A DNA stretch of 50,811 nucleotides from Actinomycetota bacterium (lineage in GTDB: Bacteria; Actinomycetota; Actinomycetes; Actinomycetales; Kineosporiaceae). Position numbers and translations under genes: made by a program. The stretch is from assembly GCA_030837345.1 (NCBI GenBank), contig JAUPKQ010000038.1, positions 1 to 50,811 on the forward strand, read 5' to 3'. Positions 8,837 to 27,651 of this stretch are shown one piece after another. How positions within the stretch are numbered: the first letter of the stretch is position 1; every line of letters starts with the position of its first letter. Under the pieces are notes generated by a model that worked only from the letters and a program-made list of their open reading frames with translations, was not told the DNA's origin and searched no databases.

Positions 8837-9096
8837 GCTGCGGCAACCCTCATGAGACCGACTGCGGCGAGGTACTCGACCACATCTACCAGTACCTCGA
8901 CGGTGAACTGGGCGACGTCGACGTCGACAAGATCCGTCAGCATCTCACCGAATGCGGTCCCTGCCTGACCGAGTACGACCTGGACCTCATGCTCAAGGCT
9001 CTCGTGCGGCGAAGCTGCGGCGGCGACTGCGCCCCCGGGGATCTCCGCGCGAAGATCTTGTTGAGGATCTCCGAGGTCCGCCTCCAGCTCGGTTGA
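8833..9096 (+). CDS. rsrA: Redox-sensing zinc anti-sigma factor RsrA
   Basis: An 87-residue ZAS-family anti-sigma factor that binds and inhibits SigR while its zinc site is reduced; disulfide formation releases SigR. The zinc motif H-x3-C-x2-C is seen as HLTECGPC (residues 37-44). Further Cys residues are at 3, 11, 62 and 66, close to the pattern of Streptomyces RsrA, where Cys11 takes part in the redox switch. The start overlaps the sigR stop as GTGA, giving coupled, roughly equal synthesis. Length and position are typical. Confidence 0.95.
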
Positions 9097-9197
9097 GCCG
9101 AACGGCTGGTCGCGCTCGCTCCCGTCTCAAGCTCGCCCGGCGGCGGGTCGAACGCCTTCTCAGGCGGGGGAGCACCCGCGTCGGAGGGAGGCCGGCC

Positions 9198-9863
9198 GTG
9201 AACGACGCCGTCATGGCGCCCCAGCCGGTGTCCTTCTTCTCCCTCCTCCACGCGGCCACCCAGGAGGAGCACCGCCGCCTGGACCGCCTCATCGGCCTTC
9301 CCACGGGCCTGCGGTCGGAGAAGGACCTCGTCCGGATCCTCACCGCGTGGGACATCGTGTGGGCGGAGGTCCGCGCCGGGGTCCAGCGCGACAGACGGCC
9401 CGCCGGGCACGACGAGCGGGCACGGCTGCTCGTCAGCGCCGTGCGAGCCCTCCAACGCATCCACGCGGATCTCGCCGAGCTGATGGCCGGGACCCGGGCG
9501 GGCAGGTCGAACCATCTCGACATACCTCCGTCGACCACGGACGACGGCCTTCTGTCGGGTCTGCTCGACGCCGAACCGGGGGTGTGGGCCGCGAGCTACG
9601 TGCTCCGGGGATCACGGATCAACGGCGGCACGGTCGCCGTCAAGATCAGCGACGAGCTGGAGCTCCCTCTCGGAGTGGCGACGAGCTACCACTCGGACGA
9701 CGCGATCGGACCGGCCTGGGCTGCGTTCCGCCGTCGTCTCGACGCTTGGGGCCGAATCGCCCGGGACGTGGACCGTGACCAGGCCGTCACCGCGACCAGG
9801 GAGGCCTTCACCGTCGTGGCGGACCGTCTGGAGGCCGCTCTCCCCGCCGTCGGGCGCACCTGA
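9198..9863 (+). CDS. Heme-oxygenase-like protein (BphO/HmuO fold)
   Basis: A 221-residue protein. The N-terminal LLHAATQEEHRRLDRL carries a His (about residue 25) where bacterial heme oxygenases have the proximal heme ligand, and ASYVLRGSRINGG matches the YVLEGSxLGG segment of the BphO group. These enzymes open heme to biliverdin, iron and CO, some to feed bacteriophytochromes. No phytochrome gene is in the window. Overall similarity is diffuse, so activity is uncertain. GTG 9198 has GGAGGGAGG just upstream. A strong hairpin follows at 9930. Confidence 0.7.
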   Translation: MNDAVMAPQPVSFFSLLHAATQEEHRRLDRLIGLPTGLRSEKDLVRILTAWDIVWAEVRAGVQRDRRPAGHDERARLLVSAVRALQRIHADLAELMAGTRAGRSNHLDIPPSTTDDGLLSGLLDAEPGVWAASYVLRGSRINGGTVAVKISDELELPLGVATSYHSDDAIGPAWAAFRRRLDAWGRIARDVDRDQAVTATREAFTVVADRLEAALPAVGRT

Positions 9864-9929
9864 ACTGCCGGGCGCACCCGAGCCGTCCGGGGAACGGGCC
9901 CTCGGACGGGATGCTGGTCCCGGAGACAG

Positions 9930-9966
9930 TGTGAGGGGCCCCGGCCGACGGCCGGGGCCCCTCACA
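9930..9966. terminator. Near-perfect hairpin, bidirectional terminator
   Basis: Two perfectly complementary 18-nt arms (9930-9947 and 9949-9966) flank a single A. It lies between the convergent heme-oxygenase-like and bL37 genes and could stop transcription from both sides. There is no U tract, which is usual for high-GC actinobacteria. Confidence 0.8.
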
Positions 9967-9985
9967 CACCGCTGCGCCGACGGCG

Positions 9986-10060
9986 TCAGCTGTTGGGGCG
10001 GCGTCCGTGGTTGGCGGCGTTGCCCTTGCGGGCGCGGCGGCGCCGGGCGCGTCTGCTCAT
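9986..10060 (-). CDS. 50S ribosomal protein bL37
   Basis: A 24-residue, very basic peptide beginning MSRRARRRR and ending NAANHGRRPNS. The ending A(A)NHGxRPN is characteristic of bL37, the small actinobacterial large-subunit protein seen in mycobacterial ribosome structures. The ATG at 10060 has GAGGAG 7 nt upstream. It is read away from the PilT gene and ends 20 bp from the strong hairpin at 9930-9966. It is easy to miss because of its size. Confidence comes from the invariant C-terminal motif and the ribosome-binding site. Confidence 0.9.
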   Translation of the reverse strand: MSRRARRRRARKGNAANHGRRPNS

Positions 10061-10169
10061 GCTCGTGCTCCTCGCGGCGATCGGGTGGCCCGCGTCGTGC
10101 GGGCGGTCGGCCACGCGGGAGGCGCAGCCACCGTCGTCATCGTCCCACACCGGGGACGGCGGTCGTCCG

Positions 10170-11324
10170 GTGACGGCGGTCGTCCCCGGTGGGCGGGCGT
10201 TCAAGCTCCCGGCCTCCCGTGCCGACGACTCCGGCGTGGATCGCGAGCCGCTCTCCGTCGCTCCCTACCTGCGTGCCCTCGTCGAGCTGTACGGCTCCGA
10301 CCTGCACTGCAAGGTCGGGTCGCCCCCCAGGGTGCGCCTCGATGGGCGCCTGCGGCGTCTCGAAGCCCCCGTCCTCGCCCCGGACGACACGAAGGCGATG
10401 GCGGATGAGGTCCTTCGGGCGGACCTGCGGGAGGAGTTCAACCGCTCCTCGGAGGCGGACTTCGCCTACTCCGTGCCCGGCCTCGGACGTTTCCGGGTGA
10501 ACGCCTTCTGGGCCCGCGGCGCGGTGGGCCTCGTGTTCCGGAGAGTGACGGTCGGGGCGATCCCCATCGAGGAGCTCGGGCTCCCGGAGGTCATTCATCG
10601 GCTGTCGCTGGAACCCCGGGGCCTGGTCCTGGTGACCGGACCGACCGGATCGGGGAAGACGACCACTTTGTCGAGCATGGTCGACCTGATCAACAGGTCT
10701 CGTGAGGTTCACATCGTCACGATCGAGGACCCGATCGAGGTCCTGCACGAGGACAAGCTGGCCATGATCAACCAGCGTGAGGTCCGTGTCGACACCGATG
10801 ACTTCCACTCAGCTCTCCGCGCGGCCCTCCGCCAGGACCCCGACGTGATCCTGGTGGGGGAGATGCGGGACGTCGAGACCGTCAAGGCGGCGATCACGGC
10901 CGCCGAGACCGGTCACCTCGTCCTCTCGACCCTCCACACGACGGACGCGCAGGAGACCGTGAACCGCATCATCGACTTCTTCTCTCCGTCCGATCAGCTC
11001 CAGGTCCGGTTGTCCCTGGCCGCGGCCTTGCGTGGGGTGATCTGCCAGCGGCTGGTCGAACGAGCGGACGGCCAGGGCCGGTGCGCCGTCGTCGAGGTCT
11101 GCGTCAACACCGGCCGGGTCTCCGAGGCGATCGTCGACGGCGACCGGTCGGCGACGATCTCCGAACTGGTCGCGGACGGCGCGTTCTACGGGATGCAGAC
11201 GTTCGACCAGCACCTGGTGACGCTCGTCCGCGACAAGGTGGTGAGGCTGGAGGACGCGCTGGAGGCCGCCACCGTGCCGCACGACCTGACGGTCGAGCTC
11301 CGCCGTCTCGGGATCGTCGCCTGA
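10170..11324 (+). CDS. pilT: PilT/GspE-family ATPase (twitching motility type)
   Basis: About 384 residues. The N-terminal LVELYGSDLHCKVGSPPRVRLDG is the PAS-like region of PilT. It is followed by the Walker A GPTGSGKTTT (about residue 157), IEDPIE (Asp box), LRQDPDVILVGEMRD (Walker B) and HLVLSTLHTTDA (His box). PilT powers pilus retraction. No pilin, PilC or PilB gene is in the window, so it is orphaned here. The start is uncertain: GTG 10170 is used because bL37 lies divergently upstream, but GTG 10236 also fits and neither has a good ribosome-binding site. Confidence 0.9.
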   Translation: MTAVVPGGRAFKLPASRADDSGVDREPLSVAPYLRALVELYGSDLHCKVGSPPRVRLDGRLRRLEAPVLAPDDTKAMADEVLRADLREEFNRSSEADFAYSVPGLGRFRVNAFWARGAVGLVFRRVTVGAIPIEELGLPEVIHRLSLEPRGLVLVTGPTGSGKTTTLSSMVDLINRSREVHIVTIEDPIEVLHEDKLAMINQREVRVDTDDFHSALRAALRQDPDVILVGEMRDVETVKAAITAAETGHLVLSTLHTTDAQETVNRIIDFFSPSDQLQVRLSLAAALRGVICQRLVERADGQGRCAVVEVCVNTGRVSEAIVDGDRSATISELVADGAFYGMQTFDQHLVTLVRDKVVRLEDALEAATVPHDLTVELRRLGIVA

Positions 11325-15029: not shown

Positions 15030-15071
15030 CCGTCGTTCCCGTCGAGGCCGTGAAGGTGCGAGGCTTGCGTC

Positions 15072-15461
15072 ATGAGTCATCGCGCCGTCGACCTCGCGGA
15101 GAGGTTGAGCCGGGTCAACGAACACTGGTCGCCCGCGGTCGTCGCTCGTATGAACGACTACGAGGTGAAGGTCGTCAAGCTCGCCGGAGAGTTCGCGTGG
15201 CACGCCCACGACGACACCGACGAACTGTTCCTGGTGCTCTCCGGGCGCCTGACCATTCGTCTGCGGGACGGTGAGGTGCATCTGGAGGCAGGCCACCTCT
15301 TCGTCGTCCCCCGGGGGGTCGAGCACTGCCCGGTCGCGGACGGCGAGGTCCACGCCGTCCTGATCGAGCCGACAGGCGTGGTGGGCACGGGCGAGGTCAC
15401 CGGCGAGGTCACCGGCGGCGGGAACGCCTCGACGCCGGTGACGTCTCCAGATGCTCGATGA
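15072..15461 (+). CDS. Single-domain cupin protein
   Basis: A 129-residue protein with one cupin barrel: motif 1 WHAHDDTDELFLVLSGRL supplies two His and one acidic metal ligand, and motif 2 LEAGHLFVVPRGVEHCPVA supplies the third His. Such proteins range from isomerases to storage or sensor proteins; the function cannot be called. The C-terminal 22 residues are a low-complexity GTGEVTGEVTGG tail that overlaps the convergent regulator gene by 53 bp. GAGGCT lies 6 nt before the ATG and no ribosome-binding site is seen, so it may be leaderless. Confidence 0.88.
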   Translation: MSHRAVDLAERLSRVNEHWSPAVVARMNDYEVKVVKLAGEFAWHAHDDTDELFLVLSGRLTIRLRDGEVHLEAGHLFVVPRGVEHCPVADGEVHAVLIEPTGVVGTGEVTGEVTGGGNASTPVTSPDAR

Positions 15462-15849
15462 ACGCGGTGAGGGCGCGAAGACTCGCCGGGGTCAGCTGCG
15501 CGGCCCGGACGGCGATGTCCCGGACCTCCCGGTCCCGCATGACCTGGATCAGTGCCAGATGCGCGTCGATCCGTTCGACCTCCTCGTTCTCTCCGAGGAA
15601 GTAGCCGACGTCGACACGGAAGTACCGGGCCAGGCCCTGCAGCACGGCCCCGGACGGGTTGTCCCTCTGGCCGGTGAGCAGCTGGGAGAGGTAACTCGCC
15701 GACAGGGGGACCCCCGCCTCGGTCACCCCCTTGGCGACGTCGCGGAGACTGCACTTCTTCCCGTCGGGACGGCGATGGAGATCGAAGAGCCGGTCGAGCT
15801 TCTCGGCCAGGCTGTCGGTGCTCGCTGACCGGCGCCGGTCGTCGTTCAT
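15409..15849 (-). CDS. XRE-family transcriptional regulator (EspR-like architecture)
   Basis: A 146-residue regulator. Residues 8-75 form an HTH: SLAEKLDRLFDLHRRPDGKK, SLRDVAKGV, then LSASYLSQLLTGQRDNPSGAVLQGLARYF and VDVGYFLGE, the pattern of the EspR-like XRE group whose C-terminal helix (RALTAFIEHLE) dimerises. EspR in mycobacteria controls the ESX-1 secretion system, which makes it notable that this gene borders a secretion-like locus. ATG 15849 has AAGGGAGG 7-8 nt upstream; an earlier GTG at 15882 is possible. It could bind the inverted repeat at 15876-15915 or the paired sites in the locus; this is inference. Confidence 0.85.
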   Translation of the reverse strand: MNDDRRRSASTDSLAEKLDRLFDLHRRPDGKKCSLRDVAKGVTEAGVPLSASYLSQLLTGQRDNPSGAVLQGLARYFRVDVGYFLGENEEVERIDAHLALIQVMRDREVRDIAVRAAQLTPASLRALTAFIEHLETSPASRRSRRR

Positions 15850-15875
15850 CCCGTACCCTCCCTTCGATTCATGCT

Positions 15876-15915
15876 CTGACACATTTCACCATCGCGGGGC
15901 ACCACTGTCTGTCAG
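15876..15915. promoter_or_regulatory. Inverted repeat upstream of the XRE regulator gene
   Basis: CTGACA (15876-15881) and TGTCAG (15910-15915) form a dyad 28 nt apart immediately upstream of the regulator start. It may be an autoregulatory operator. Confidence 0.35.
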
Positions 15916-15990
15916 GTTCGGGCGGAGCGGTCGGCCGGCGGGCCCCAGCAGGGCCCCACCCGGGCCGCGGCCTCGGTCAGTCTGCTCCCT

Positions 15991-16554
15991 CTACGGTCCC
16001 TGAACTGCGGTGATCTCGTCGACGCGCCAGAACCCACCGGTCAGGGCCAGGCGAAGGAACAGGGTGCGCCGCTGGACCGTCGTCCATCCGCCGTCGCCAC
16101 GGAGGGTGATGATGGCGTGCACCTGGCGATGGACGGCGGACGTCGTGTCGGGCGGGTGCTCGTCGCCGCCCAGCCGGACGTCGACGTCGGCCCGGGCATG
16201 TCGTCGTGTCCACTCGTCCCACTCCGCCCCGGGGGCCGAGTCGCCCGCGAAGGTGGAGGTCTCCCGGCGCAGTCCCGGTGTCAGCCACCCCAGGGCGAGG
16301 CGCCGCACCGTGTCGTTCGGACGGGTGTCGACGCGCGTGTCCCACGACAGGACGGCTCTGACGGTGGTGAGTGCCACGGTGTCGGCCGGTCCCTCGACGG
16401 GGGCTCCCACGGGGACCGGGGCCGTGGAGGGGAGAACGGCGATCGCCGCTTCCTCCGCGCTGTCCGGCGCCGGTGTGCCGCCTCCGCACCCGGCCAGCGT
16501 GACGGCGAGGAGGAGCGCCCCCGCCGGGATCAGGCGTAACGGACGGCGCGCCAC
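15991..16554 (-). CDS. Lipoprotein of VirB8/TcpC size in the T4SS-like locus
   Basis: A 187-residue lipoprotein: the basic start VARRPLRL, hydrophobic core IPAGALLLAVTLAGC with a lipobox (LAGC), then about 160 extracytoplasmic residues. The second half (TTVRAVLSWDTR, WDEWTRRHARADVDVRL, QVHAIITLRGDGGW, RTLFLRLALTGGFWRVDEI) has the helix-then-curved-sheet pattern of NTF2-like domains, as in VirB8/TcpC. That assignment is inferred from pattern only. The GTG at 16554 lies inside the end of the wall-hydrolase gene (25-bp overlap), so the two are one operon. Confidence 0.7.
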   Translation of the reverse strand: MARRPLRLIPAGALLLAVTLAGCGGGTPAPDSAEEAAIAVLPSTAPVPVGAPVEGPADTVALTTVRAVLSWDTRVDTRPNDTVRRLALGWLTPGLRRETSTFAGDSAPGAEWDEWTRRHARADVDVRLGGDEHPPDTTSAVHRQVHAIITLRGDGGWTTVQRRTLFLRLALTGGFWRVDEITAVQGP

Positions 16555-17528
16555 TGCTGACTCCGCCAGTAGGAAGTGGTCAGGTCGGCGGTGCGGACAC
16601 GGGTGCCCGACCGTGGTGCGTGGATCATCGTTCCTCCCCCGAGGTAGATGCCGACATGATGGGCGACCGCCTCTCCGGGGCTGGTGAAGGAGATGACATC
16701 CCCGGGACGCAGCCTGTCGCGGGGTACCGGCGTGCCGGTCCGTGTCTGGGCGTCCGCCGAGTGCGGCAGCTTCACCGAGCCGCCCGACGCGCGGTAGGCC
16801 GCGTAGAGAACGAGGCCGGAGCAGTCGAGGCCGCCTCTGGTCGGTCCCCGGAACGATCCTCCCGACCACACGTACGGAACACCGGTCTGCCCCCTCGCCG
16901 CCTCGACGAACCGGGTCGCGAACCCGCGTGCCACGACCGGGACGTGCTCCACGGCAGCGGTGAGGTCCTCCATCCTTTGGGTGATCTTGTTCACGTAGTC
17001 CCTCGTCTCCTCGAAACGGGGGATCCCCTTCGCCGCGAGCACGGCTCCCGGCCCGGCGTTGTAGGCCGCGAGCATCAGTTCGACGAGATCGCCCGTCACG
17101 GCTCCCCGGGCCTTGGCGGCGGACATCGACGAGGCCAGGTGGCAGTCGTAGGTGGCCTGGGAGAGGATCGCGTCCGCAGGGTCGAACGGGGACGGCGGTC
17201 CGTCGCCGTCGCCGTCGCCGTCGCGCCCCCAGCGACGCCACGTCGCGGGCATGAACTGCGCGAGGCCCTGCGCGCCGGCGCGGGAGACGGCGCGCGGGTT
17301 CCAGCCGGACTCCGCCTCCAGCTGTGCGGCCAGCAGGGCGGGGGTCACGGCCGGGCACAGGGTGCCCGCCGTGTTGACGAGGGCCGCGTAGACCGCGGGG
17401 ACGGTCCCGGGTCGCAGAGGGGGCGCCGTCCGCGCGGGGATCTGCCCGCCCATGGTCACGACGAGCACCACCAGGAGGAGGACGAGTCCCACCGAGAGGG
17501 CGACGAGCCAGCCGATGACGGCTCTCAC
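16530..17528 (-). CDS. Bifunctional wall hydrolase: lytic transglycosylase plus NlpC/P60 endopeptidase (VirB1-like)
   Basis: A 332-residue protein with an N-terminal membrane anchor (residues 4-27), a lytic transglycosylase domain (50-200: catalytic Glu73 in ESGWNP, GAQGLAQFMPATW, AYNAGPGAV) and a C-terminal NlpC/P60 domain (210-330: Cys in DCSGLVLYAAYR, His in HHVGIYLGGGTMIHAP). This two-domain form opens peptidoglycan at Gram-positive conjugation machines (VirB1/TcpG-type). Between the motifs lies GDGDGDGDG, coded by a hexamer repeat near 17206-17226. GTG 17528 has AGGAG 9 nt upstream. It overlaps the lipoprotein gene downstream. An inverted-repeat site lies 77 bp upstream. Confidence 0.92.
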   Translation of the reverse strand: MRAVIGWLVALSVGLVLLLVVLVVTMGGQIPARTAPPLRPGTVPAVYAALVNTAGTLCPAVTPALLAAQLEAESGWNPRAVSRAGAQGLAQFMPATWRRWGRDGDGDGDGPPSPFDPADAILSQATYDCHLASSMSAAKARGAVTGDLVELMLAAYNAGPGAVLAAKGIPRFEETRDYVNKITQRMEDLTAAVEHVPVVARGFATRFVEAARGQTGVPYVWSGGSFRGPTRGGLDCSGLVLYAAYRASGGSVKLPHSADAQTRTGTPVPRDRLRPGDVISFTSPGEAVAHHVGIYLGGGTMIHAPRSGTRVRTADLTTSYWRSQQWRAVRYA

Positions 17529-17604
17529 GACGACGGGCTCCTGCCGGGCGCTGGGATCACCGGTACCTCCCCGGGCGCCGTCGTCGTGCCCGGCCCCACG
17601 AGTT

Positions 17605-17648
17605 GTTCGCTGTAGCGATCAGTGGATGATCTGTGCACTATAGCGAAC
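17605..17648. promoter_or_regulatory. Inverted-repeat site A (GTTYGCT-N30-AGCRAAC)
   Basis: GTTCGCT (17605-17611) and AGCGAAC (17642-17648) form a perfect 7-bp dyad with a 30-nt spacer; four more bases pair imperfectly. It lies upstream of the wall-hydrolase gene. On the minus strand the right arm runs into TATAGT, one base from the -10 consensus. Site B at 19746-19789 has the same spacing. Confidence 0.65.
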
Positions 17649-17697
17649 ATCTGCCGGGCGTCTCGTGACGGACCGGGCCCGAGGGCCCGGACGGTGG

Positions 17698-19662
17698 TCA
17701 CTTCTCGCCGGCCGTCCGGACGGCAGCCAGGTACCACTGCGAGCCGGACGGTGCGATTGTGAGGGCGAGTGGTTTCCTGCCCGGTGTGACCAGGGCGAAC
17801 GGCACCGGGGTGTTCTTTTCGAGAGACAGGACGGAGAACCCGGACGGTCGCTTGGGCACGATGTCGACGATCTCTTGCGGCGCGTTCGCCGGGTCTCGGT
17901 TCATCGCGTAGACATGTCCTTCGACGAGGCTGATCGGCGTGTACTGCGCGAGCAGCGAACTGATTCGCCGGACACCCGGGTCGACCACGACCTGCCCCAC
18001 CGCCGTGATCGATCCGGACACCTGCCGCGTGACTCCCGCCTGGGTGATGTCCGCTCCTGCCGGGACGGCGTCGTTGATGAGGATCTTCGCGGTCTGCGTG
18101 TCGACGAGAGAGATCTTCTGGGGGTCGTTGCCCTTGCGGGCCCAGACCGTGAGCAGGTACCGGCCTGCGATGTCCACCATCCGCGCCGGTGGGCCCAGGG
18201 CCCCGGGCGGCGGCGGTACCGCGTGCGCCTGGAACCCCGTGGCCGTCGCGCGGATCCAGGTCCCGGCGAGGACGGCCACGACGGCGGGACCATCGGCGGC
18301 CAGAGCCCGGGCCTTCGGCGGTATCGGGACCCGGCTCAGGGCGCCCTCGTTGACCAGCCAGACGGCGGCGCCCGCCGTGACGAGCGGCGCGGTGCCGGTC
18401 CAGGTCACCTTCGCCCCGGCGGGGAGGACGATCCTGCGAGGCTCCGGCACCTCGGCCACCTGGCGCCGGGACCGGTCGGGGCCGGACGCCTCCTGGTCCG
18501 GCGCCGGTGAGGCCGGCCAGTAGGCCAGCGCCGAAGCCGAGGCGAGCGCCAGGACCTTGCGGCCGTCGATGTGCGTCAGCCACGGTCCGTCCCATTCCGC
18601 GCCCCACCGTGATCCGCCGCGGTGCGTCACCGTGCCCTTCCCCGGATCGACGTGGATGATCCGTCCCTCGCCGTCGCGGGTCGCGACGACGGTGTCCCGG
18701 ACCGCGACCTTGGTCCACTGCGCGACCTCCGCCGTCCAGGCCGTACGGGTGGAGAACCCCGGCAGCGTCCCGGGGAGGGATGACAGTGGCCCCCGTTCGG
18801 GGGCGCCGGCCGCCTCGTCGCCGGCCGCCTCTCCCTCCGGCGGGCGCATCGTGGCTCCGGCCTGGGATCGCCAGGGCTGGGACATCACCGTCGCGGCGAT
18901 GAGGATCAGCAGAACCACCCCGAGTCCGATGACCGCCGCCACGGGACGACGAACGCGCCGCGGGACGAGGTCGTCGGCCGGGAGGCTCCTTCGAGCCATC
19001 GTCGTGACCGGTGGGGGTGTCATGACCGGTGGGGGTGTCGTGACCGGCGGGGGCGTCGGAGCCGGTGGTGGTCTCATGAACGGTGGGGGTGTGGCCTTGG
19101 CCGCGGGGGTTCCGGCGGCCGTTCCGCTCGGTTCCGTTCCCCGGGCGTCGGTGAGGCCGGGTCCTTCGCGTCGGGCGAGGTAGGGATGGGGCGGCGGGAC
19201 GGCCTTCCGCGGGACCGGCTTGTCCTTCTCGGTGGAGAGATGAATCACTCGGAGAGCGGGATCCGGAGCCTTCGCCTGCGGGAGGGGTGGTGCCACCGGG
19301 GCCGGAGCCGGAGGTGGAGCCGCAGCCGGAGGTGGAGCCGGGGTCTGCGGTGGTGACCAGGGAACATTCCCGGCGTCCACCAGATCGAACGTTCCGTCCG
19401 GATGGGCGATGAGGTGACGTGTCCCCGAAGGGTCTGTCGCGGTGACGCCGACGTCCCGGCCCAGGGTCGCGGCCATGCGCGCCGCCTCTCCCATCAGTTG
19501 CCGTCGTACGTCGTCGCTCTTGGCCGGAGCGAGGGTCCTGCCGTTGAGCGTCGCCCGGCCGTCGAGCGTGAGGACCAGGGAGACGACAGGCCAAGTGGCT
19601 GATGCCTCGTGGTGAGCGTGTGGATTCCCCGCCGGAGGGACGGGCCCGGGCGTCCGGCTCAA
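17698..19662 (-). CDS. Proline-rich single-pass membrane protein with a large extracytoplasmic domain (T4SS-like locus)
   Basis: A 654-residue protein. Residues 1-80 form a small cytosolic domain; 85-215 are very Pro-rich, including hexapeptide repeats PPPVTT/PPPVMT coded by 18-bp tandem repeats; one membrane helix is at about 236-258; the remaining 390 residues are extracytoplasmic, with repeated beta-strand segments (WTKVAVRDTVVATRDGEG, RYLLTVWARKG) suggesting a beta-propeller-like or sandwich fold. Cytosolic domain, Pro-rich spacer, one helix and outer domain recalls VirB10-type scaffolds, but no sequence motif proves this. The start is TTG with GAGAGGGG upstream. Site B lies between it and the divergent operon. 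Confidence 0.7.
   Translation of the reverse strand: MSRTPGPVPPAGNPHAHHEASATWPVVSLVLTLDGRATLNGRTLAPAKSDDVRRQLMGEAARMAATLGRDVGVTATDPSGTRHLIAHPDGTFDLVDAGNVPWSPPQTPAPPPAAAPPPAPAPVAPPLPQAKAPDPALRVIHLSTEKDKPVPRKAVPPPHPYLARREGPGLTDARGTEPSGTAAGTPAAKATPPPFMRPPPAPTPPPVTTPPPVMTPPPVTTMARRSLPADDLVPRRVRRPVAAVIGLGVVLLILIAATVMSQPWRSQAGATMRPPEGEAAGDEAAGAPERGPLSSLPGTLPGFSTRTAWTAEVAQWTKVAVRDTVVATRDGEGRIIHVDPGKGTVTHRGGSRWGAEWDGPWLTHIDGRKVLALASASALAYWPASPAPDQEASGPDRSRRQVAEVPEPRRIVLPAGAKVTWTGTAPLVTAGAAVWLVNEGALSRVPIPPKARALAADGPAVVAVLAGTWIRATATGFQAHAVPPPPGALGPPARMVDIAGRYLLTVWARKGNDPQKISLVDTQTAKILINDAVPAGADITQAGVTRQVSGSITAVGQVVVDPGVRRISSLLAQYTPISLVEGHVYAMNRDPANAPQEIVDIVPKRPSGFSVLSLEKNTPVPFALVTPGRKPLALTIAPSGSQWYLAAVRTAGEK
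19006..19095. repeat. Five 18-bp tandem repeats inside the proline-rich gene
   Basis: Units at 19006, 19024, 19042, 19060 and 19078 share GACCGGTGGGGGTGTC-type sequence. On the coding (minus) strand they encode Pro-Pro-Pro-Val-Thr/Met-Thr hexapeptides. Unit number may vary between strains and would change linker length in frame. Confidence 0.8.
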
Positions 19663-19745
19663 GGTGGCCCCTCTCTTGTTGATCGCCTCGGTGGTACCCC
19701 GTGAGGGAGCCCGTGGGAAGACACGGTGCGGACCTCACCTTGACT

Positions 19746-19789
19746 GTTTGCTGACCTGCACGCTAGCCATAGTGTTCGACATAGCAAAC
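19746..19789. promoter_or_regulatory. Inverted-repeat site B in the divergent T4SS-like promoter region
   Basis: GTTTGCT (19746-19752) and AGCAAAC (19783-19789) form a perfect 7-bp dyad (8 bp with the flanking T/A) with the same 30-nt spacer as site A. It lies between the divergent proline-rich gene and the rightward operon. A promoter-like TTGACT (19740-19745) with TAGCCA (19764-19769) overlaps it on the plus strand, so a bound regulator could block RNA polymerase in both directions. Confidence 0.65.
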
Positions 19790-19797
19790 AAGGGGGC

Positions 19798-20463
19798 ATG
19801 GTGGCAGACGCGGAGGATCCCTGGTTGACCGCGGCACGTACGCTCCGGTCCGAGGAGCCGGAGAAACGCTCGCTCGCCGTCCGCTCCGATCCGGTGCCGG
19901 AGCGGCTGCAGTCGCACGAGGTGGCGCCCGCCGAGGCGCCCGTGCCCGGGCACCGCATCCCGCGGTGGTTCGAGCGGCCTCGTCCGCACCTCGGTGAGGG
20001 CACGGCGAGTGGGGCCGCCCGCTGGTGGTGGCTCGGCGTCCACGGCGGAGCGGGGGTGAGCACGCTCCTCGAACTCGTGCCCGGCGGTGCGGACGCCTTC
20101 CGGTTCTGGCCGTCCCCTTCGGTGCACGGCGGGCCCGACGGCCTGGTCCTGGTCTGCCGGACGCACGCGCACGGTCTGCGCTGCGCCCGCGCGGCGGTGC
20201 ACCAGTGGAACTCGCACGACGTGCCGGATCGCCTCACCCTGCTGGGACTGGTCGCGATCGCCGACGCCCCCGGCAAACTGCCCGTCCCCCAGTCCCAGGC
20301 GTTGCGTCTGCTCGCCGGCGCGGTGGAGAGGCTCTGGACCGTCCCGTTCCTGGAGGACCTGCGGCGGGCGCCCGACATCCACGGCCTCCCGATGCCGCCC
20401 GCCCTGGCGAAGCTCTCCTCCGACCTCGAAGCGCTACGGCCCTTGACCGAGGCGTTGTGGTGA
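19798..20463 (+). CDS. DUF6668-like protein with a degenerate P-loop
   Basis: A 221-residue soluble protein. After an 80-residue variable N-terminus, WWWLGVHGGAGVSTL (residues 76-90) resembles the deviant Walker A of MinD/ParA-type proteins (GGxGKT), but the Lys is replaced by Val, so normal ATP hydrolysis is doubtful. GLVLVCRTHAHGLRCA and LLGLVAIADAPGKLP fit the later strands of a P-loop fold. This resembles the family catalogued as DUF6668, which occurs beside SCO6880-type genes. It is the first gene of the rightward operon; the next gene overlaps its stop as GTGA. ATG 19798 or GTG 19801 may be used (AGGGGG just upstream). Confidence 0.75.
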   Translation: MVADAEDPWLTAARTLRSEEPEKRSLAVRSDPVPERLQSHEVAPAEAPVPGHRIPRWFERPRPHLGEGTASGAARWWWLGVHGGAGVSTLLELVPGGADAFRFWPSPSVHGGPDGLVLVCRTHAHGLRCARAAVHQWNSHDVPDRLTLLGLVAIADAPGKLPVPQSQALRLLAGAVERLWTVPFLEDLRRAPDIHGLPMPPALAKLSSDLEALRPLTEALW

Positions 20464-21617
20464 GCGGCGGCACCTACCTCGCTCGCCGCGTGGTCGCCGG
20501 CCACCGTTGGCGGAAGGCTCGTTCGCTGCGGTCCCGCCTGAGGTCGACCTCGCCGGTCAACCTCGTTCTGACCGGGCGTTTCACCGCTGCCGGGCTCGGT
20601 TCGACCACCGATCTGTACCGGGCCGGGGACGTGTTCGGCAGGTCGTGGGGTTTCCTCCACGTCGCCTCGACCGGGCACGGGTCGATCGTCCTCACCTGTG
20701 AGATCAGCGGCGACGCGCTGGAGGACGCCGAACGCGCCGGGACCTGGGTCGCCCGGCTCGGCCTGTGGCTGGCGATGCTCTCCCACGAGCCTGATCTCGT
20801 GGCGTGCGTCGTCAGCATCGATCGTGGTTCCGGCACGAGCGACGTGGAGGTCCGTCTGCAGCTGACCTACCAGGTCGCGGGTCCGCACGACCTGCGTGAC
20901 CCGGCGGCCCAGGCGACGGAGCTGGCGGCCCGCATCCCGGAGCTCACGAGGTCGCTCGCCGACGTCGGCCGCGTGACGGCGGCGACCAGCGAGAGCGTCC
21001 GGGCGACGGTCCTCGCCGCCTACTCGCCGTCCTCGGGGAGCGGGAACGGGACACCGGCACCGGCCAGGGTCGGGCGGGGGCGCCGGGCGGTGCAGGTGCT
21101 CGACCTCAAGGAGAGCTGGAACCACGTGGGCCACGGCTCGGAACGGGCGGCCGTCTCGACCACCTGGTCCCTCAGCCGCCTCGCCTCCAGCGTCGTCCTG
21201 TCCAGTGCTCTGCCACCGCTGATGACCATCCCGCCCGATCTCGCGCACATCCGTGTCGGCCTGATGGCCCAGCCGTCGAGCGGCGCACCCTCCACGTACG
21301 ACCCCCGCGAGTGGACGGGGCTCAGCGCCGGGGCCCTCGGGCTGCGGACTCCTAAGGGGGCGGAGGAGGACCTCCCGACACCGGCCTTCTCGATGCTGGT
21401 GACGGCGACGGTGGCACGCCAGGAGCTCCTGGCGGACGCCGCCCTCGCGGTGCGTGGCTGCCTCCCACCGGACGTGCAGCCGTGGCTCCGGCCCCTGTAC
21501 GGCGACCAGGCGGCCGGTTTCGCCGCGGGCCTGCCTCTCGGGCTCGCCCCCGACGAGCACACCCTTCCGCCCCGGACCGTCGCGACGGCGCCCGAACCCC
21601 GGCCCGGCCGGACATGA
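20460..21617 (+). CDS. TM-less paralogue of the SCO6880-family protein
   Basis: A 385-residue soluble protein with no membrane helix. It aligns along most of its length with the SCO6880 protein encoded at 23274: LGLWLAMLSHEPDLVACVV against DTWLAVLGREHGIDQVAVV, FSMLVTATV against FSMFVTVTV, and LRPLYGDQAAGFAAGLPLG against LRPVAGAQAAAFAAGLGVG. It lacks the N-terminal two-helix anchor. SCO6880 proteins resemble the N-terminal domain of VirB4/TrbE. A soluble duplicate in the same operon suggests a heteromeric VirB4-like complex, which is inference. GTG 20460 overlaps the upstream stop codon. Confidence 0.78.
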   Translation: MSGGTYLARRVVAGHRWRKARSLRSRLRSTSPVNLVLTGRFTAAGLGSTTDLYRAGDVFGRSWGFLHVASTGHGSIVLTCEISGDALEDAERAGTWVARLGLWLAMLSHEPDLVACVVSIDRGSGTSDVEVRLQLTYQVAGPHDLRDPAAQATELAARIPELTRSLADVGRVTAATSESVRATVLAAYSPSSGSGNGTPAPARVGRGRRAVQVLDLKESWNHVGHGSERAAVSTTWSLSRLASSVVLSSALPPLMTIPPDLAHIRVGLMAQPSSGAPSTYDPREWTGLSAGALGLRTPKGAEEDLPTPAFSMLVTATVARQELLADAALAVRGCLPPDVQPWLRPLYGDQAAGFAAGLPLGLAPDEHTLPPRTVATAPEPRPGRT

Positions 21618-21671
21618 CTGGTGGAGGCGCGGCCCTGGGCATGGTCCGCGAGTCACGAGAAGGAGAGACCG

Positions 21672-21980
21672 ATGACACCGTTCCTCACATCCGTGGTGGC
21701 CGTCGGCGTCCGCGCCGCCACGCCGTCCCCGACCGGAGGCAGGGTCGACGTCAGACCCACGGCTCCGGCCTTCGCGGGCCACTTCAACGAGCTGGTGGGG
21801 TGGGTGCTGTGGGGATGCACCCTCGTCTGCGTCATGGGGATCGCGATCATCGGCGCCATGCTCGCCCTGTCCCTTCGCCGGGGGGAGACCGGCGAGTACG
21901 TCGCGAGGCTCCTGGCGGCCGCCACGGGTGTGATCATCGTCGGCCTGTCGTCGACGATCGTCAACGCGTTGATGAGGTGA
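21672..21980 (+). CDS. Small two-helix membrane protein, VirB2/TrbC-like (possible pilin or channel subunit)
   Basis: A 102-residue protein: residues 1-17 are a weak hydrophobic leader that could be cleaved near ATPS, then a short hydrophilic stretch and two membrane helices (43-68 and 79-100) joined by LRRGETGEYVARL. Size, topology and a place before the VirB6-like gene match VirB2/TrbC pilins and the small membrane proteins of Gram-positive T4SS loci. There is no sequence-level proof. ATG 21672 has AAGGAGAG at good spacing. Confidence 0.7.
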   Translation: MTPFLTSVVAVGVRAATPSPTGGRVDVRPTAPAFAGHFNELVGWVLWGCTLVCVMGIAIIGAMLALSLRRGETGEYVARLLAAATGVIIVGLSSTIVNALMR

Positions 21981-22071
21981 GCGCTCCCTGCGCGGTCACG
22001 CCGGGCACGCGGCACGCGCCGGGTGGGACGGCGGGATCACCTCAGGGATCCGACAGCGGGAGGACGGCACC

Positions 22072-23277
22072 ATGACGATCACCATGACGATCACCATGAT
22101 GGTCGGAATGACGGGGGACCTTCCCGCGCTTCTCCTCCCCGCCGCGCCCTCCCCACCACCGGGCGGAGGCACCGTCCCGGGCGACCAGTTCGCGACGCTG
22201 GTCCGCCAGCTGTCGACAGGCCTCATCAACCTCCTGGAGATGATGACCGGCAGCTGGGTGCTGGTGGGGGCTCCGAGGACGGGTGTCCATGACTCGATCC
22301 TCACGAAGACGCAGGAACTGACGCTCCCCCTGACGGTGGTGGTGGCGACGATCGGCGTCATGGTGGCCGGTACCCGGATGGTCGTCTCCAGCACGCGTCT
22401 CCAGGAGACCGGCCGGGACCTCCTTCGCGGTCTGCTCCTGCTGGCCGTCTTCGGGACCGGATCCGTCTGGATCGTGACCAAGGTGCGGGAGGCCTTCGAC
22501 GCGGCCGTCGCCTCCGTCGTCCTCGACGATCTCTCGGCACCCACCACGAAGAGCCTCACCCAAGTGATCACGGTCGCGGCCGCCGACAAACCCGGAGTGA
22601 TGTTCGTCCTGTCCGTCGTCGGCATGGTCTCCGTGCTCATGCAGTTCGTCATGCTGCTGCTGCGCGAGCCCGCGCTCGCCGTCCTGACCGGGCTGCTGCC
22701 GGTCGCCGCCGGCGCGTCGATGAGCGGGCTCGGCCGGATCTGGTTGATGAGGATCATCAGCTGGATCGCGGCTCTGGTCATCTACAAGTTCGTGGCCGCC
22801 GTGATCTATGCGACGGCCTTCGGCTCGCTCCGGACCGCCAAGGACCTGACGGACATCATCACGTGCATCACCTTGATCATCATCGCGGTCGCGGCGTTGC
22901 CGATCCTCGTGCGCCTCCTGACCCCGACCATCATGGCGATGCAGCCAGGGGGCGGGTCGCTCGCGGCCGCGGGGACGATCGGCTCCGGTGCCGTGCTGCT
23001 CAACGGGCAGAACCGCAAGGGTGGTTTCGGCGACGACCGTCCCTCGGACGCCGGGGCGCCCTCCCGGCCCGGCCTCGCCCTGGGGGCGTTGCCGGCGCAG
23101 ACCGGCACCGTCCCGAGAGCCCTGCCCGCCGGGGCGCGACAGGCGACCGGACCGGACGACGGCTTGGACCTCGATCCTCCCCTCCCCGTCATCCGGAGAG
23201 CAGGCCCCGACGCGGGGGTCGTCCGGCGACCCGGCACCCTCGGCCGGACCGGCGACGAAGCGGAGCCCCTCCGGTGA
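22072..23277 (+). CDS. SCO6881-family polytopic membrane protein (VirB6/TrbL-like)
   Basis: A 401-residue protein with about six membrane helices between residues 85 and 300 (LPLTVVVATIGVMVAGTRMV, LLRGLLLLAVFGTGSVWIV, VMFVLSVVGMVSVLMQFVMLLL, PALAVLTGLLPVAAGASM, IISWIAALVIYKFVAAVIYA, IITCITLIIIAVAALPILV) and a hydrophilic 100-residue tail. EPALAVLTGLLPVAAGASMS and WIAALVIYKFVAAVIYA are typical of the SCO6881/TrbL-like family that forms the inner-membrane channel of T4SSs. ATG 22072 follows GGGAGGACGGCACC. It is followed by a GTGA overlap with the SCO6880 gene, so channel and anchor are made together. Confidence 0.88.
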   Translation: MTITMTITMMVGMTGDLPALLLPAAPSPPPGGGTVPGDQFATLVRQLSTGLINLLEMMTGSWVLVGAPRTGVHDSILTKTQELTLPLTVVVATIGVMVAGTRMVVSSTRLQETGRDLLRGLLLLAVFGTGSVWIVTKVREAFDAAVASVVLDDLSAPTTKSLTQVITVAAADKPGVMFVLSVVGMVSVLMQFVMLLLREPALAVLTGLLPVAAGASMSGLGRIWLMRIISWIAALVIYKFVAAVIYATAFGSLRTAKDLTDIITCITLIIIAVAALPILVRLLTPTIMAMQPGGGSLAAAGTIGSGAVLLNGQNRKGGFGDDRPSDAGAPSRPGLALGALPAQTGTVPRALPAGARQATGPDDGLDLDPPLPVIRRAGPDAGVVRRPGTLGRTGDEAEPLR

Positions 23278-24821
23278 GCGGGTCCGTGCCGACCTCGACG
23301 CGGCCTCCGATCCGGACGTACGGCGGGTGGCGCCGGCCGATGTCCCCGGGGCTGGGCGCCCTCGCCCTCGTGCCGACCTTGGGGATCTTCGTCGGCCTGA
23401 TCGTGACGCTCCTCGTGGCCACGACCACCTCCCTGACGGCGGGGGCGATCTGCGGAGCGGTGTTCCTGCTGCTGACGGCCCCCGCCGTCGTCCAGATCGG
23501 TGACCGGCCGGCCTGGCGTCACCTCACGCTGCGCTGGGCCTGGCGGCGGGCCCGGAGGACGGGTGCCGCGGTCTACCGGTCCGGTCCCCTCGGCCATCTG
23601 CCCGAGGAGGACTGCCGCCTGCCCGGGCTGCTCGCGCGGTCCCGGGTGTGGTCCGCGCGCGACTCGTACTCCCGGCCGTTCGCCCTGATCCAGCATCCGT
23701 TCTCGAACCAGTGGACCGTGGTCCTGGCCGTCAACCCGAACGGTGGCGCGCTCATCTCGCGGGAGGACCGGGACGGCCGTGTCGCGCACTGGGACACCTG
23801 GCTAGCCGTCCTCGGCAGGGAGCACGGGATCGACCAGGTGGCCGTGGTCCTCGACCAGGTGCCGGATCCCGGGCGGATCCTGCGGGCCTGTGTCGACGAG
23901 TCGATCGCGCCGGACGCACCGGAGTTCGCCGCGCGGATGATGCGGGACGCCGCCCGCGTCTACCCGACCGGCAGCGCGGAGCTCACCGCGTTCGTCGCCA
24001 TCACCTTCAGCGGGCGCAAGCTCGCCGTCCCGACCGGTGACCGTGTCGCCGAGGAAGCCGCCGAACTGGCGGCCCGCGAGATCGGTACCCGGCTCCCCGG
24101 GCTCTCCCGGTCGCTCGTGGCGACCGGATCGGGGGAGGGCCGGCCGGTCACGGCCGACGGCCTCGCCACGATGGTGAGGGGATGGTACGACCCCGCGGTC
24201 CAGGTCCCGCTCGCCGAGGCGGCCGCCCGGGGCTGGGAACCGGGCCTCCGCTGGGAGGACGCCGGTCCTGTCGCCGCGCAGGAGACCTGGGACACCTACC
24301 GGCACGACTCGGGGCTCTCCCGGGTCCTGGAGATGACGAGTTCTCCCCGGGGAACCGTCTACGACTCGGTGCTGTCGCCGATGATCGCACCGATGCCCGG
24401 ACGCAAACGGGTCACCCTGCTGTACCGGCCGCTCCCCGCCGCCGATGCCCCCGCGGCCCTCGATCTCCAGGTCCGGGCGGCGCTCAACCGGGCGGGGCGG
24501 CGCAAAGGTCTCGTGCACGCCCACGACAGCGCGGAGGTCCGTGCCGCGGTGCAGGCCGCCCAGGAGGAGGCGACAGGTGCCGGCGTCGTCTCGTTCTCGA
24601 TGTTCGTCACCGTCACGGTGGACGGCGACCGGGACGGCGGCCGGCCCGAGGAGGATCTGCGAGCGGCGACCGAGGCGATCGTCCGGGCCGCGCGGTCCGC
24701 CCAGGTCGTGCTGCGTCCGGTCGCGGGAGCGCAGGCCGCGGCCTTCGCCGCGGGACTCGGGGTCGGCATCGTTCCCGTCAACCACTCGCTGCTGCCGTCC
24801 GGCGTCCGGTCCGGCGTCTGA
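23274..24821 (+). CDS. SCO6880-family membrane protein (VirB4 N-domain-like)
   Basis: A 515-residue protein. Residues 12-20 (TYGGWRRPMSPGL) precede two membrane helices (about 22-70: LGALALVPTLGIFVGLIV, AICGAVFLLLTAPAVVQI); then follows a large cytosolic part with LRWAWRRARRTG, WTVVLAVNPNGGALIS, WDTYRHDSGLSRVLEM and LRPVAGAQAAAFAAGLGVG. This is the SCO6880 family found in actinobacterial conjugation-like loci beside an ATPase; it corresponds to the N-terminal half of VirB4, with the motor domain encoded separately downstream. GTG 23274 overlaps the SCO6881 stop. Confidence 0.88.
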   Translation: MSGSVPTSTRPPIRTYGGWRRPMSPGLGALALVPTLGIFVGLIVTLLVATTTSLTAGAICGAVFLLLTAPAVVQIGDRPAWRHLTLRWAWRRARRTGAAVYRSGPLGHLPEEDCRLPGLLARSRVWSARDSYSRPFALIQHPFSNQWTVVLAVNPNGGALISREDRDGRVAHWDTWLAVLGREHGIDQVAVVLDQVPDPGRILRACVDESIAPDAPEFAARMMRDAARVYPTGSAELTAFVAITFSGRKLAVPTGDRVAEEAAELAAREIGTRLPGLSRSLVATGSGEGRPVTADGLATMVRGWYDPAVQVPLAEAAARGWEPGLRWEDAGPVAAQETWDTYRHDSGLSRVLEMTSSPRGTVYDSVLSPMIAPMPGRKRVTLLYRPLPAADAPAALDLQVRAALNRAGRRKGLVHAHDSAEVRAAVQAAQEEATGAGVVSFSMFVTVTVDGDRDGGRPEEDLRAATEAIVRAARSAQVVLRPVAGAQAAAFAAGLGVGIVPVNHSLLPSGVRSGV

Positions 24822-24868
24822 ACCGTGGACCAGTACCAGCAGGAACCGACGGCGGAAGGAATGGGGAC

Positions 24869-26311
24869 ATGAGAAAGAACCCGTCCCGGCGCGCGGGCCG
24901 TCTCGGCCTGCGTGGGGGAGTCGGCCGCGGAGGCGGCGCGACGACGTTCGTGCCCGTCCCCCTGGAGTGGCAGGGCACGACCCGGCAGGTCGCGGGCCTG
25001 TTCCCGTGGGGGGTGCCGGGGCGGCTCCCCGCCATCGGCGTCCCGACCGGCCGTCACCAGCTGGGGGCCGGAGTGGTGTGCTTCGACCCGGCGAGCTGGT
25101 TCCGCGCGGGGCTGATCGCCAACCCGTCGGTCCTCGTCCTCGGCAAACCGGGCCTCGGCAAGTCGACCCTCGTCGACCACTGGGGAATCGGGCTGGCCGC
25201 CATGGGCTACCGCATCCTCGTCCCCGGCGACACCAAGCCCGACCACGTGGAGATGACCCGCGTTCTCGGCGGGGCGGTGCAGCAGGTGCGGCGCTCCGGC
25301 GGCGCCGCCCTCAACCCCTGCGATCCCGGGGGTATGGGGGCCTCGGCCGCCCGCATCGGAGGCCAGGCGGGGGACACCCTCCTGCACGAGGCGATCGGCC
25401 GCGGGACGACCGCCGTCCACTCCCTGGTCCAGCTGATCCGTGACGGTTCTCCGGTGCTGGACCATGAGCGGGCGGCTCTCGCGATGGCTCTGCGCGTCCT
25501 CTACACGTCAGGCCGGCGCGCCCCCTCGTTGCCGGATGTCCTCGACGTCCTGGGGCAGAGGCCGGACGAGATCCGTTCGGTCGTGCTCGCCCGGGGCGGG
25601 GACGACGACTACGACGTCCTGCTCGACCCGTTGCGCCGTTCCCTGCTCGCCCTGCTCGCGGGTCCCTACGGCAACGTCTTCTCGCGCCCGGTCGACCGCA
25701 GCGACATCGACACCCCCGCCCTGGACATCGACACGTCGGCCATCAAGGCCGGGGATCCGGGGTACCTGGCGGCGGTCCTCATCTGTGCCTGGAGCGAGGC
25801 CTACGGGCGGGTGGAGTCCGCTCAGGCCCTCACGGCGGCCGGGCTGGAGCCACGCCGCCAGCACGTGGTGATCCTCGACGAGCTGTGGCGCGTGCTCCGC
25901 GTCGGCCGTGGGACCGGAATGGCGGACCGGGTGAACGAGCTCACCCGCCTCAACCGGACCGAGGGGGTGTGCCAGATCATGGTCACCCACGGAGTCCGGG
26001 ATCTCTCCACCGGGCGCGACCAGCAGGTGGAGGGCATCGAGCACCGTGCGGGGGCGCTCGTGATCGGCGGGATCCCGAAAGGCGAGGTCCGGGCCCTGCA
26101 GGACGTCGTCACGCTCACCGACGCGGAGGCCGGACAGCTCGTCTCGTGGTCGTCCGCGCCGGACCTCGACCCGCGCACCAGGCCTCCGGGCTCGGGGAAG
26201 TTCCTCATCAAGCACTCCCCGACGGAGCCGGGTATCCCCGTCGACGTCATGCTCACGCCGACCGAACTGGCCTGGGGCGGACAGAACTCGAATCGCGCAT
26301 GGGAGGACTGA
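24869..26311 (+). CDS. VirB4/HerA-like ATPase of the T4SS-like locus
   Basis: A 480-residue P-loop ATPase. Walker A GKPGLGKST (about residues 91-99), then ILVPGDTKPDHVEM, and Walker B HVVILDELW (about residue 331) followed by MVTHGVRDL (sensor-like) and LIKHSP. This is the motor half of VirB4-type proteins, lacking the N-terminal domain that the preceding SCO6880 gene provides. It is expected to energise assembly or transport at the cytosolic face. ATG 24869 is preceded by GGAAGGAATGGGGAC. No second motor of VirD4/TcpB type is in the window. Confidence 0.9.
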   Translation: MRKNPSRRAGRLGLRGGVGRGGGATTFVPVPLEWQGTTRQVAGLFPWGVPGRLPAIGVPTGRHQLGAGVVCFDPASWFRAGLIANPSVLVLGKPGLGKSTLVDHWGIGLAAMGYRILVPGDTKPDHVEMTRVLGGAVQQVRRSGGAALNPCDPGGMGASAARIGGQAGDTLLHEAIGRGTTAVHSLVQLIRDGSPVLDHERAALAMALRVLYTSGRRAPSLPDVLDVLGQRPDEIRSVVLARGGDDDYDVLLDPLRRSLLALLAGPYGNVFSRPVDRSDIDTPALDIDTSAIKAGDPGYLAAVLICAWSEAYGRVESAQALTAAGLEPRRQHVVILDELWRVLRVGRGTGMADRVNELTRLNRTEGVCQIMVTHGVRDLSTGRDQQVEGIEHRAGALVIGGIPKGEVRALQDVVTLTDAEAGQLVSWSSAPDLDPRTRPPGSGKFLIKHSPTEPGIPVDVMLTPTELAWGGQNSNRAWED

Positions 26312-26502
26312 GTCGTCGTACCCGGGAAGAATGGATTCTTCGCCAGGGCTTTCTGGATGCCAAGGCAACTGAATTGATACAACTGATGTGGTGGGCCCGT
26401 ATATCCGGCGGTGCCGTGGCGGCCAATGAAGCCGAAGATCCGTGGATCCGCGGAAAACCGTGGAGGGGAGGAATGGCGCTCCCCTTCACCTGGGAACATT
26501 GA
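26299..26502 (+). CDS. Possible small protein with atypical codon use
   Basis: A 67-codon frame starting with ATG inside the end of the ATPase gene (13-bp overlap). Its sequence contains several Trp residues (EEWILRQGF, LIQLMWWARI, GKPWRGGM) and is clearly richer in A/T-ending codons (ATT, CTT, ATA, CAA, GAA, AAA) than its neighbours. GGAGGAC inside the start is not a usable site. It may be a real accessory protein acquired from elsewhere, or the remnant of one. No family is recognised. Confidence 0.35.
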   Translation: MGGLSRRTREEWILRQGFLDAKATELIQLMWWARISGGAVAANEAEDPWIRGKPWRGGMALPFTWEH

Positions 26503-26568
26503 CAGCGGCTCATCGGCCGGGTTGGCTGTGTCCGGGCTTCGTCCGGTCGTCCTGGGCCGGGGTTTCGG

Positions 26569-27651
26569 ATGTTCTCGGGGGGCAAGACGGTGGATTTGGT
26601 TGACGGCCCCGGGTTCGGACCCTGCGGGATGATGTTCGCCTCGATCGAATCGATGCTCTCCTCCCCGTTCTCGCTAGAGTCTTTGGTCTCCGTCGTTGAG
26701 CGTGAGATCGATTTCCCCATCACGGTCGAGGTGCTCCCGCCGGGGCTCGGGCCGGACATATCGGGGTTGAGCGTCGTCGTCGGCGACGAAATCCGGATCT
26801 ACCATCCTTCCGGCCCGGAATGGATGAGGCTCGTCGTCGTGACCCGTCAGCTCGCGCATCTTCTCCTGCACCGTCCGGGCGGATCCGCCGGAGCGGGAGT
26901 GCCGCGCCGGACCGGGGACGACCCGGACGGCGAACTGCTCGGCATCCTGCTCGCCGACCACGCCGAGCAACTGCTGATCGGGCAGGACACGACCCGCACG
27001 GACGACGGTCAGGCGGTCCGGGCGCAGCTCGATCTGATGATGCCTCTCTGGGCGATGCTCGTCGACGGTACGTCCGCGCCCCTGTCGTGGCCCGAGCCCC
27101 TGCGTCTCGGGGGCGTCCGTCCCGGGGCGGGCCGGGGTCGTGGCTGTCCCGGCCGGCCGCGGGCGGCCGCCCGCCCGGCCGCCCCGGAGAACGCCGCTCA
27201 CCCACGGACGAGTGAGGCATGCCTGCGCTGGCGGCGACAGCGTGTCGTCACCGACCTCTACGACATGCGGCGAGGGCTCCGTGGCCTGGTGCCTCCGGAC
27301 CTGCCCGCCCTGGCCCTGGAACAGGTCCGCGGGGCCGGTCTCTTCGGGCCCGTCGCGACAGCCGCCGCCGACCGCGTCTTTCTGGAGGTCGCCCTCGCGG
27401 CCCGGGCCGGGCATGCCGTCACCAGGGAACCGCTGGGGGACGACGCGGGCGTGTGGCTGCCCGGGAGGACGCCGGCGGAGGCCGCCGCCCACGTCGCCGG
27501 GCAGGAGAGACTGGTCGCCCCCGGCGGCGTCCGGACGGTGATCGGCGCTGTCCGCGACCTCCTGACCGGCGCGGTGGCCGATCAGGTCTCGGGCAGCCCG
27601 AGCCAGGCGTGCCATCCTCCGTGGAGGACGAGCCAAGCCATCAGCCCGTAG
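26569..27651 (+). CDS. ImmA/ParH-like regulator component with a DUF6545-like C-terminal region
   Basis: About 360 residues. The N-terminal half (SLESLVSVVEREIDFPITVE, ISGLSVVVGDEIRIYHP, WMRLVVVTRQLAHLLLHRPGG) follows the pattern of actinobacterial ParH-like or regulator-component proteins, an ImmA/IrrE relative; only a HxxxH-like LAHLLLH remains of the metal site (no HExxH). The C-terminal half (RRQRVVTDLYDMRRGLRGL, ARAGHAVTREPLG) resembles the end of MAB_1171c/DUF6545 proteins, which usually are separate. It ends the T4SS-like block and overlaps the convergent GDSL gene by 70 bp. The start is uncertain: ATG 26569, 26629 and 26632 are all possible. Confidence 0.6.
   Translation: MFSGGKTVDLVDGPGFGPCGMMFASIESMLSSPFSLESLVSVVEREIDFPITVEVLPPGLGPDISGLSVVVGDEIRIYHPSGPEWMRLVVVTRQLAHLLLHRPGGSAGAGVPRRTGDDPDGELLGILLADHAEQLLIGQDTTRTDDGQAVRAQLDLMMPLWAMLVDGTSAPLSWPEPLRLGGVRPGAGRGRGCPGRPRAAARPAAPENAAHPRTSEACLRWRRQRVVTDLYDMRRGLRGLVPPDLPALALEQVRGAGLFGPVATAAADRVFLEVALAARAGHAVTREPLGDDAGVWLPGRTPAEAAAHVAGQERLVAPGGVRTVIGAVRDLLTGAVADQVSGSPSQACHPPWRTSQAISP

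Follow-up and report, generated by a model that had tools for sequence, protein, structure and literature searches.

Chromosomal clusters that combine a VirB4-like ATPase with SCO6880-like and SCO6881-like proteins have been described in Streptomyces coelicolor, namely, cmdA-F (SCO4126-4131) and SCO6871-6884; cmdA-F is required for normal Streptomyces sporulation and failed to replace the SLP2 transfer genes (PMC2782261). In Gram-negative bacteria, type IV secretion systems (T4SSs) that lack VirD4 and have nonconjugative roles include Ptl, Brucella VirB, ComB, and Bartonella Trw, and a recent review calls such roles in Gram-positive bacteria an open question (PMC12857230). Here we analyzed a T4SS locus at positions 15991 to 26311 of contig JAUPKQ010000038.1 from an actinobacterium of the Kineosporiaceae (GCA_030837345.1); the window, that is, the whole stretch of DNA analyzed (50,811 bp), is the entire contig, and the assembly comprises 4.35 Mb in 269 contigs and is 97% complete. 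The nine genes of the locus are all intact and form two diverging arms, with g3, g2, and g1 leftward and g4 to g9 rightward, and these genes are the translocon of an actinobacterial T4SS of the SCO6880/SCO6881 type. The locus resembles both S. coelicolor clusters in its VirB4-like, SCO6880-like, and SCO6881-like set, the cmd phenotype being one of sporulation and chromosome segregation. By analogy, its gene set would also be like the VirB4-driven channels without a coupling protein of Ptl, Brucella VirB, ComB, and Trw, although those belong to diderm hosts and include outer-membrane core proteins, unlike the window.

The same diverging arms occur on plasmid pJ337-114 of Arthrobacter sp. J3.37 (NC_019338.1), where one arm encodes a ParA-type protein with the N-terminal domain of g3, a lipoprotein, a CHAP hydrolase, and a helix-turn-helix (HTH) protein, and the other encodes DUF6668, a small membrane protein, an SCO6881-type protein, SCO6880, and an ATP/GTP-binding protein. 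The plasmid also has a type IV coupling protein (T4CP) and a DUF4913 protein after the ATPase, as well as a 240-amino-acid bitopic protein, all absent from the window; it is typed as conjugative, with a MOBP relaxase and MPF_T, whereas the window has no relaxase of the kinds tested. Conversely, the window encodes a second SCO6880 protein that pJ337-114 does not. Kribbella SCO6880 loci (e.g., L256 and L259) have a direct g3 orthologue in the same position as the window but differ from it in retaining the T4CP and DUF4913 genes and in carrying two SCO6881 copies. In many Kribbella species (L196, L199, L231, and others), this T4SS, with SCO6881 present twice, is found on large contigs and may be a fixed chromosomal element. 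We could not demonstrate orthology between the window and cmd (SCO4127-4129): a peptide derived from the published cmdB primers was absent from the fetched loci, cmd was unmatched to any of them, and the window falls in a conjugative-type clade. The locus works like the translocon of actinobacterial conjugative plasmids and shares its descent; lacking the DNA-loading parts, it is a variation on a known type.

Our preferred reading, to which we assign a probability of roughly 70%, is that the locus is a chromosomally captured, self-transfer-incompetent derivative of the envelope (mating-pair) module of a conjugative element of the SCO6880/SCO6881 type. SCO6880-family proteins were judged against the curated NF042935 cutoff of 60 bits, and g4, g6, g7, and g9 were scored with profiles built from the proteins of relatives. 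On the forward strand, g8 (23274 to 24821) encodes a full-length SCO6880-family protein (467.7 bits), and g5 (20460 to 21617) encodes a second, shortened member without the N-terminal transmembrane (TM) part (97.8 bits), to which nothing was closer among 297 genomes than general SCO6880 members. The g7 product (22072 to 23277; 316 bits) is a polytopic SCO6881-type protein with about six TM-like segments, VirB6-like in position and topology, and g9 (24869 to 26311; 557 bits, with a TraC-F-type match at 7e-6) encodes a VirB4-type ATPase in which Walker A (GKPGLGKS) and Walker B (VVILDE) are both intact. The small two-helix membrane protein g6 (21672 to 21980) is VirB2-like by its score against the relatives' profile (108 bits), its Pfam matches being weak (T4SS_pilin, 0.045; TrbC, 0.097), and g4 (19798 to 20463) is a DUF6668-type protein (265 bits; PF20373 at 0.0021, below the cutoff). 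The SCO6881 and two-helix proteins are placed between DUF6668 and SCO6880 in the same order as in relatives. The original prediction had named the SCO6880, SCO6881, and VirB4-like components, which stand, and a VirB2-size two-helix protein, which is weakly upheld.

On the reverse strand, g2 (16530 to 17528) is, as had been proposed, a VirB1-like wall hydrolase, with a TM segment, SLT and NlpC/P60 domains (Pfam SLT, 2e-16; NLPC_P60, 4e-23), and the catalytic motifs AESGWN, DCSGL, and HVGIYL. Its end is overlapped by the GTG start of g1 at 16554, as read from the sequence. The g1 product (15991 to 16554) is a lipoprotein with lipobox LAGC whose homologues occur in Streptomyces T4SS loci; its AlphaFold model (mean predicted local distance difference test score, 77) has CagV, VirB8, TrwG, and PrgL as its top PDB structure matches, which supports a predicted NTF2/VirB8-like fold and bears out an assignment that had been made on size. 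The third leftward gene, g3 (17698 to 19662), had been taken for a VirB10-type scaffold, a role we reject: it has no Pfam match, no VirB10 C-terminal beta-barrel domain was recognized, and its low-confidence model resembles BamB-type propellers instead. It is a bitopic protein in which a small conserved N-terminal domain and a Pro-rich linker precede a single TM segment (residues 241 to 259) and a probable extracytoplasmic beta-propeller-like domain. Orthologues of g3 are found in Kribbella within T4SS loci, and a T4CP-bearing locus of this kind on a Curtobacterium plasmid includes a gene for a g3-like propeller protein. PDB sequence searches with g3 and with g9 gave no useful match. The g3 N terminus (window positions 19350 to 19610) is a domain of ∼85 amino acids with the motif HPDG and no Pfam name; domains of this type head differing proteins of T4SS loci, including a ParA-like ATPase, an FHA protein, and a propeller-like protein (L061, L228, L203, and Kribbella loci).

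All nine genes are free of frameshifts or stops, and their catalytic motifs are intact. GC content at third codon positions (GC3) is 0.83 to 0.91 throughout, close to that of host genes, and 4-bp start/stop overlaps join g4 to g5 and g7 to g8. Of the near-invariant residues, defined by columns at least 95% identical in more than 140 relatives, g9 retains 97%, g8 93%, and g5 67%. Taken together with the match of the core frames to family profiles over their full length, these features place the block beyond chance.

What the locus lacks is the DNA-loading apparatus. The ATPase gene of relatives normally has a T4CP gene as its next neighbor downstream (identified by TraG-D_C, 9e-30, and T4SS-DNA_transf, 2e-18), a DUF4913 gene comes after that, and a PF03432-type relaxase lies nearby in a number of them; a T4CP was found in 75 of the 78 named relatives whose sequence reached far enough and, within the stretch read, in 85 of 110 loci of the whole-genome sample. 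In two Actinomadura loci (L237 and L242), the T4CP gene instead precedes the DUF6668 gene, on the other arm. Between g9 and g10 of the window, which are 257 bp apart, there is no T4CP gene or remnant, and missing from the block are both the DUF4913 protein and a 245-amino-acid bitopic protein (C5) that relatives encode between the VirB2-like and SCO6881 proteins. The original prediction had seen no relaxase, T4CP, replication gene, or integration gene, and core chromosomal genes on the flanks, and this holds for the window; the lack of matches extends genome-wide to T4CPs (PF12696 and family profile A1) and to MOBP (PF03432 and family profile A2) and MOBF (PF08751) relaxases, other MOB families not having been searched. 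Several relatives and control genomes gave matches for the Pfam T4CP and relaxase families. No integrase or replication gene was seen among the window genes scanned, nor were features of actinomycete integrative and conjugative elements (FtsK-like TraB translocase, Rep, and Int), for which no genome-wide search was made. Since there is no T4CP, DNA cannot be loaded, and the locus cannot self-transfer, by the known route; with both of the defining features tested, T4CP and relaxase, lacking, it does not qualify as a conjugative system.

The block (15030 to 27581) is an insertion at a single chromosomal site. Family relatives share a gene order in which a sigma gene and a cpaF-like gene precede sodN, adh, gdsl, and kgd; nine relatives have adh next to gdsl (26 to 593 bp apart), gdsl is otherwise neighbored in two more, and the T4SS is present at this site in 0 of 11 testable family relatives. 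In the window, adh and gdsl converge with 12.5 kb between their 3′ ends, both flanks are core genes, and the family order is kept around the block (sodN-adh and gdsl-kgd). No tRNA marks the block ends. The original prediction counted ten genes between 15991 and 26311; the diverging arms lie there as described but hold nine, and the tenth is an XRE-family regulator just beyond (15409 to 15882, reverse strand), which matches HTH_3 and is 33 to 47% identical to XRE genes in nine relative T4SS loci. At the far end of the block, opposite this regulator, g10 (26569 to 27651, forward strand) encodes an ImmA/IrrE-like protein recognized by a sequence motif (DUF6545 at 6e-4, below the cutoff), with a degenerate zinc motif (RQLAH instead of HExxH) and final codons running antisense into gdsl. 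The pair resembles ImmR/ImmA of integrative and conjugative elements, but g10 is catalytically degenerate. A place for g10 among the core flank genes was rejected; its match in L111 takes in antisense gdsl sequence.

A search of genome contigs with g8 alone returned no relatives, and one with alignment A3 returned 426 (best identity, 45%); a g8 relative is also encoded by 442 actinobacterial plasmids. In a mixture-model tree of SCO6880 and the ATPase, the window falls in a clade of 13 rows, 10 of them T4CP bearing (support, 100/100), which suggests that its T4CP-less state arose inside a mostly T4CP-bearing clade. The T4CP-less label changes at least five times in the tree, a count that takes in one Streptomyces group with a T4CP that may only lie further downstream, and the safe claim is therefore limited to the separation of the window from the T4CP-less locus of family f36, which well-supported branches split from it. 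A Streptomyces clade was withdrawn as T4CP-less because a T4CP lies 5 to 6 kb further downstream in the sister loci L166 and L174. In f36 (L132 and L134 to L142), 10 of 10 sampled loci of one clade encode SCO6881, SCO6880, and the VirB4-like ATPase, nearly all have the hydrolase and lipoprotein, and no T4CP or relaxase was found within ∼7 kb downstream in the 10 loci; this has the look of a T4SS without a T4CP that has been retained by vertical descent. Several f36 loci have egtA/egtB-like genes (ergothioneine synthesis) downstream, and GAVGSRKS replaces the canonical Walker A in the two f36 ATPases inspected.

Under the capture reading, the module would have been captured between adh and gdsl, with the coupling protein, relaxase, DUF4913, and replication/integration genes stripped or never present there. 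The SLT/NlpC hydrolase g2 would open the wall, the VirB8-fold lipoprotein g1 and propeller protein g3 would form an outer platform, SCO6881 and SCO6880 would make up a membrane channel or stalk together with the VirB2-like protein, and VirB4-like g9 would power assembly, probably under control of the XRE regulator. Because genes and catalytic motifs are intact, the machine may still assemble, and if active it would be a T4CP-independent device for secretion of already exported proteins, a surface structure, or uptake. Several points weigh against this reading. The assembly is fragmented, and a T4CP or relaxase could sit on an unassembled plasmid; a few relatives likewise have no adjacent T4CP; neither an integrase nor attachment (att) repeats mark the insertion, the repeats found being chance-like; and the nearest relatives are only ∼43 to 45% identical, too distant for gauging selection. 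The C5 bitopic protein is missing too, which may mean that the machine no longer assembles. The original prediction of a machine for something other than self-transfer is upheld insofar as this is a translocon without a T4CP or the tested relaxases that cannot self-transfer by the known route; that it is an orphan kept for another job is unsupported, because relatives lie on plasmids and in T4CP-bearing loci, the block is an insertion, and the T4CP-less state appears to have arisen within a T4CP-bearing clade.

Two further readings, both tentative and at about equal odds, concern what the block does now. It could be a decaying relic, an immobilized conjugative element that has lost cargo and DNA-processing genes and is functionless with its frames yet unbroken: the insertion is unique to this genome among testable family relatives, the T4CP, relaxase, C5, and DUF4913 proteins are missing, the second SCO6880 is shortened and divergent with a third of its near-invariant residues lost, and the window has a long end branch in the tree. 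Yet the nine genes show no frameshift or stop and keep their catalytic motifs, near-invariant residues, and 4-bp coupled starts; host-like codon usage fits long residence but equally a donor of similar composition. Alternatively, selection could maintain a repurposed T4CP-independent machine that exports Sec-delivered proteins, assembles a surface structure, or imports DNA, in keeping with the intact genes, the 10 of 10 T4CP-less loci in one f36 clade, the Gram-negative VirD4-less T4SSs with such roles (PMC12857230), and the sporulation role of cmdA-F, which is no substitute for SLP2 transfer genes (PMC2782261). The block, however, holds no conserved substrate gene, no close relative shares the T4CP-less state, and the f36 locus is in a different clade. 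A stronger version, in which the translocon was permanently converted to T4CP-independent work with the shortened duplicate SCO6880 and a surface beta-propeller adaptor, as one of several independent actinobacterial conversions including the f36 locus, strikes us as rather unlikely.

More doubtful still is a helper translocon used in trans by visiting mobilizable elements equipped with a T4CP and relaxase of their own. According to the review, R388 TrwB raises VirB/D4-dependent DNA transfer in Bartonella, and T4CPs can therefore work with foreign channels (PMC12857230). In genome G182, a cassette without an adjacent T4CP adjoins a T4CP-bearing one (L112/L113). On the other hand, pairing of T4CP and channel is usually specific, and the kinds of T4CP and relaxase tested are absent from this genome. 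Fragmentation into 269 contigs could suggest an assembly or binning artefact that fused part of a plasmid to a chromosomal contig, but the family gene order on both flanks (sodN-adh and gdsl-kgd) and uniform GC and GC3 make this highly improbable, and we reject it.

Elsewhere in the window, positions 8952 to 11324 encode a CpaF/T2SSE-type ATPase (PF00437, 5e-51) and an unknown 303-amino-acid neighbor; the ATPase is conserved at 64 to 72% at the corresponding site of family relatives, and no other tad or pilus genes were recognized near it in the window. Promoter and terminator pattern matches were too sparse to be informative. Several family relatives (L034, L037, L043, L045, L046, L048, L049, and L052) have a second, distant T4SS-like gene set with a TrbL_4-like protein, weak SCO6880/VirB4 matches, and a HerA/TraG-like ATPase of ∼900 amino acids. 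Actinobacterial T4SS loci also occur on contigs filed as Acidobacteria, Croceicoccus, and Deinococci metagenome-assembled genomes (L202, L245, and L264), probably through binning contamination.

A genome that has a complete-looking translocon but neither a T4CP nor relaxases of the tested kinds offers a clean test case for nonconjugative T4SS roles in Gram-positive bacteria. The comparison also revealed a second, family-wide T4CP-less locus, that of f36, whose function is testable by deletion. If the block is only a relic, it shows a route by which conjugation modules get fixed in chromosomes.

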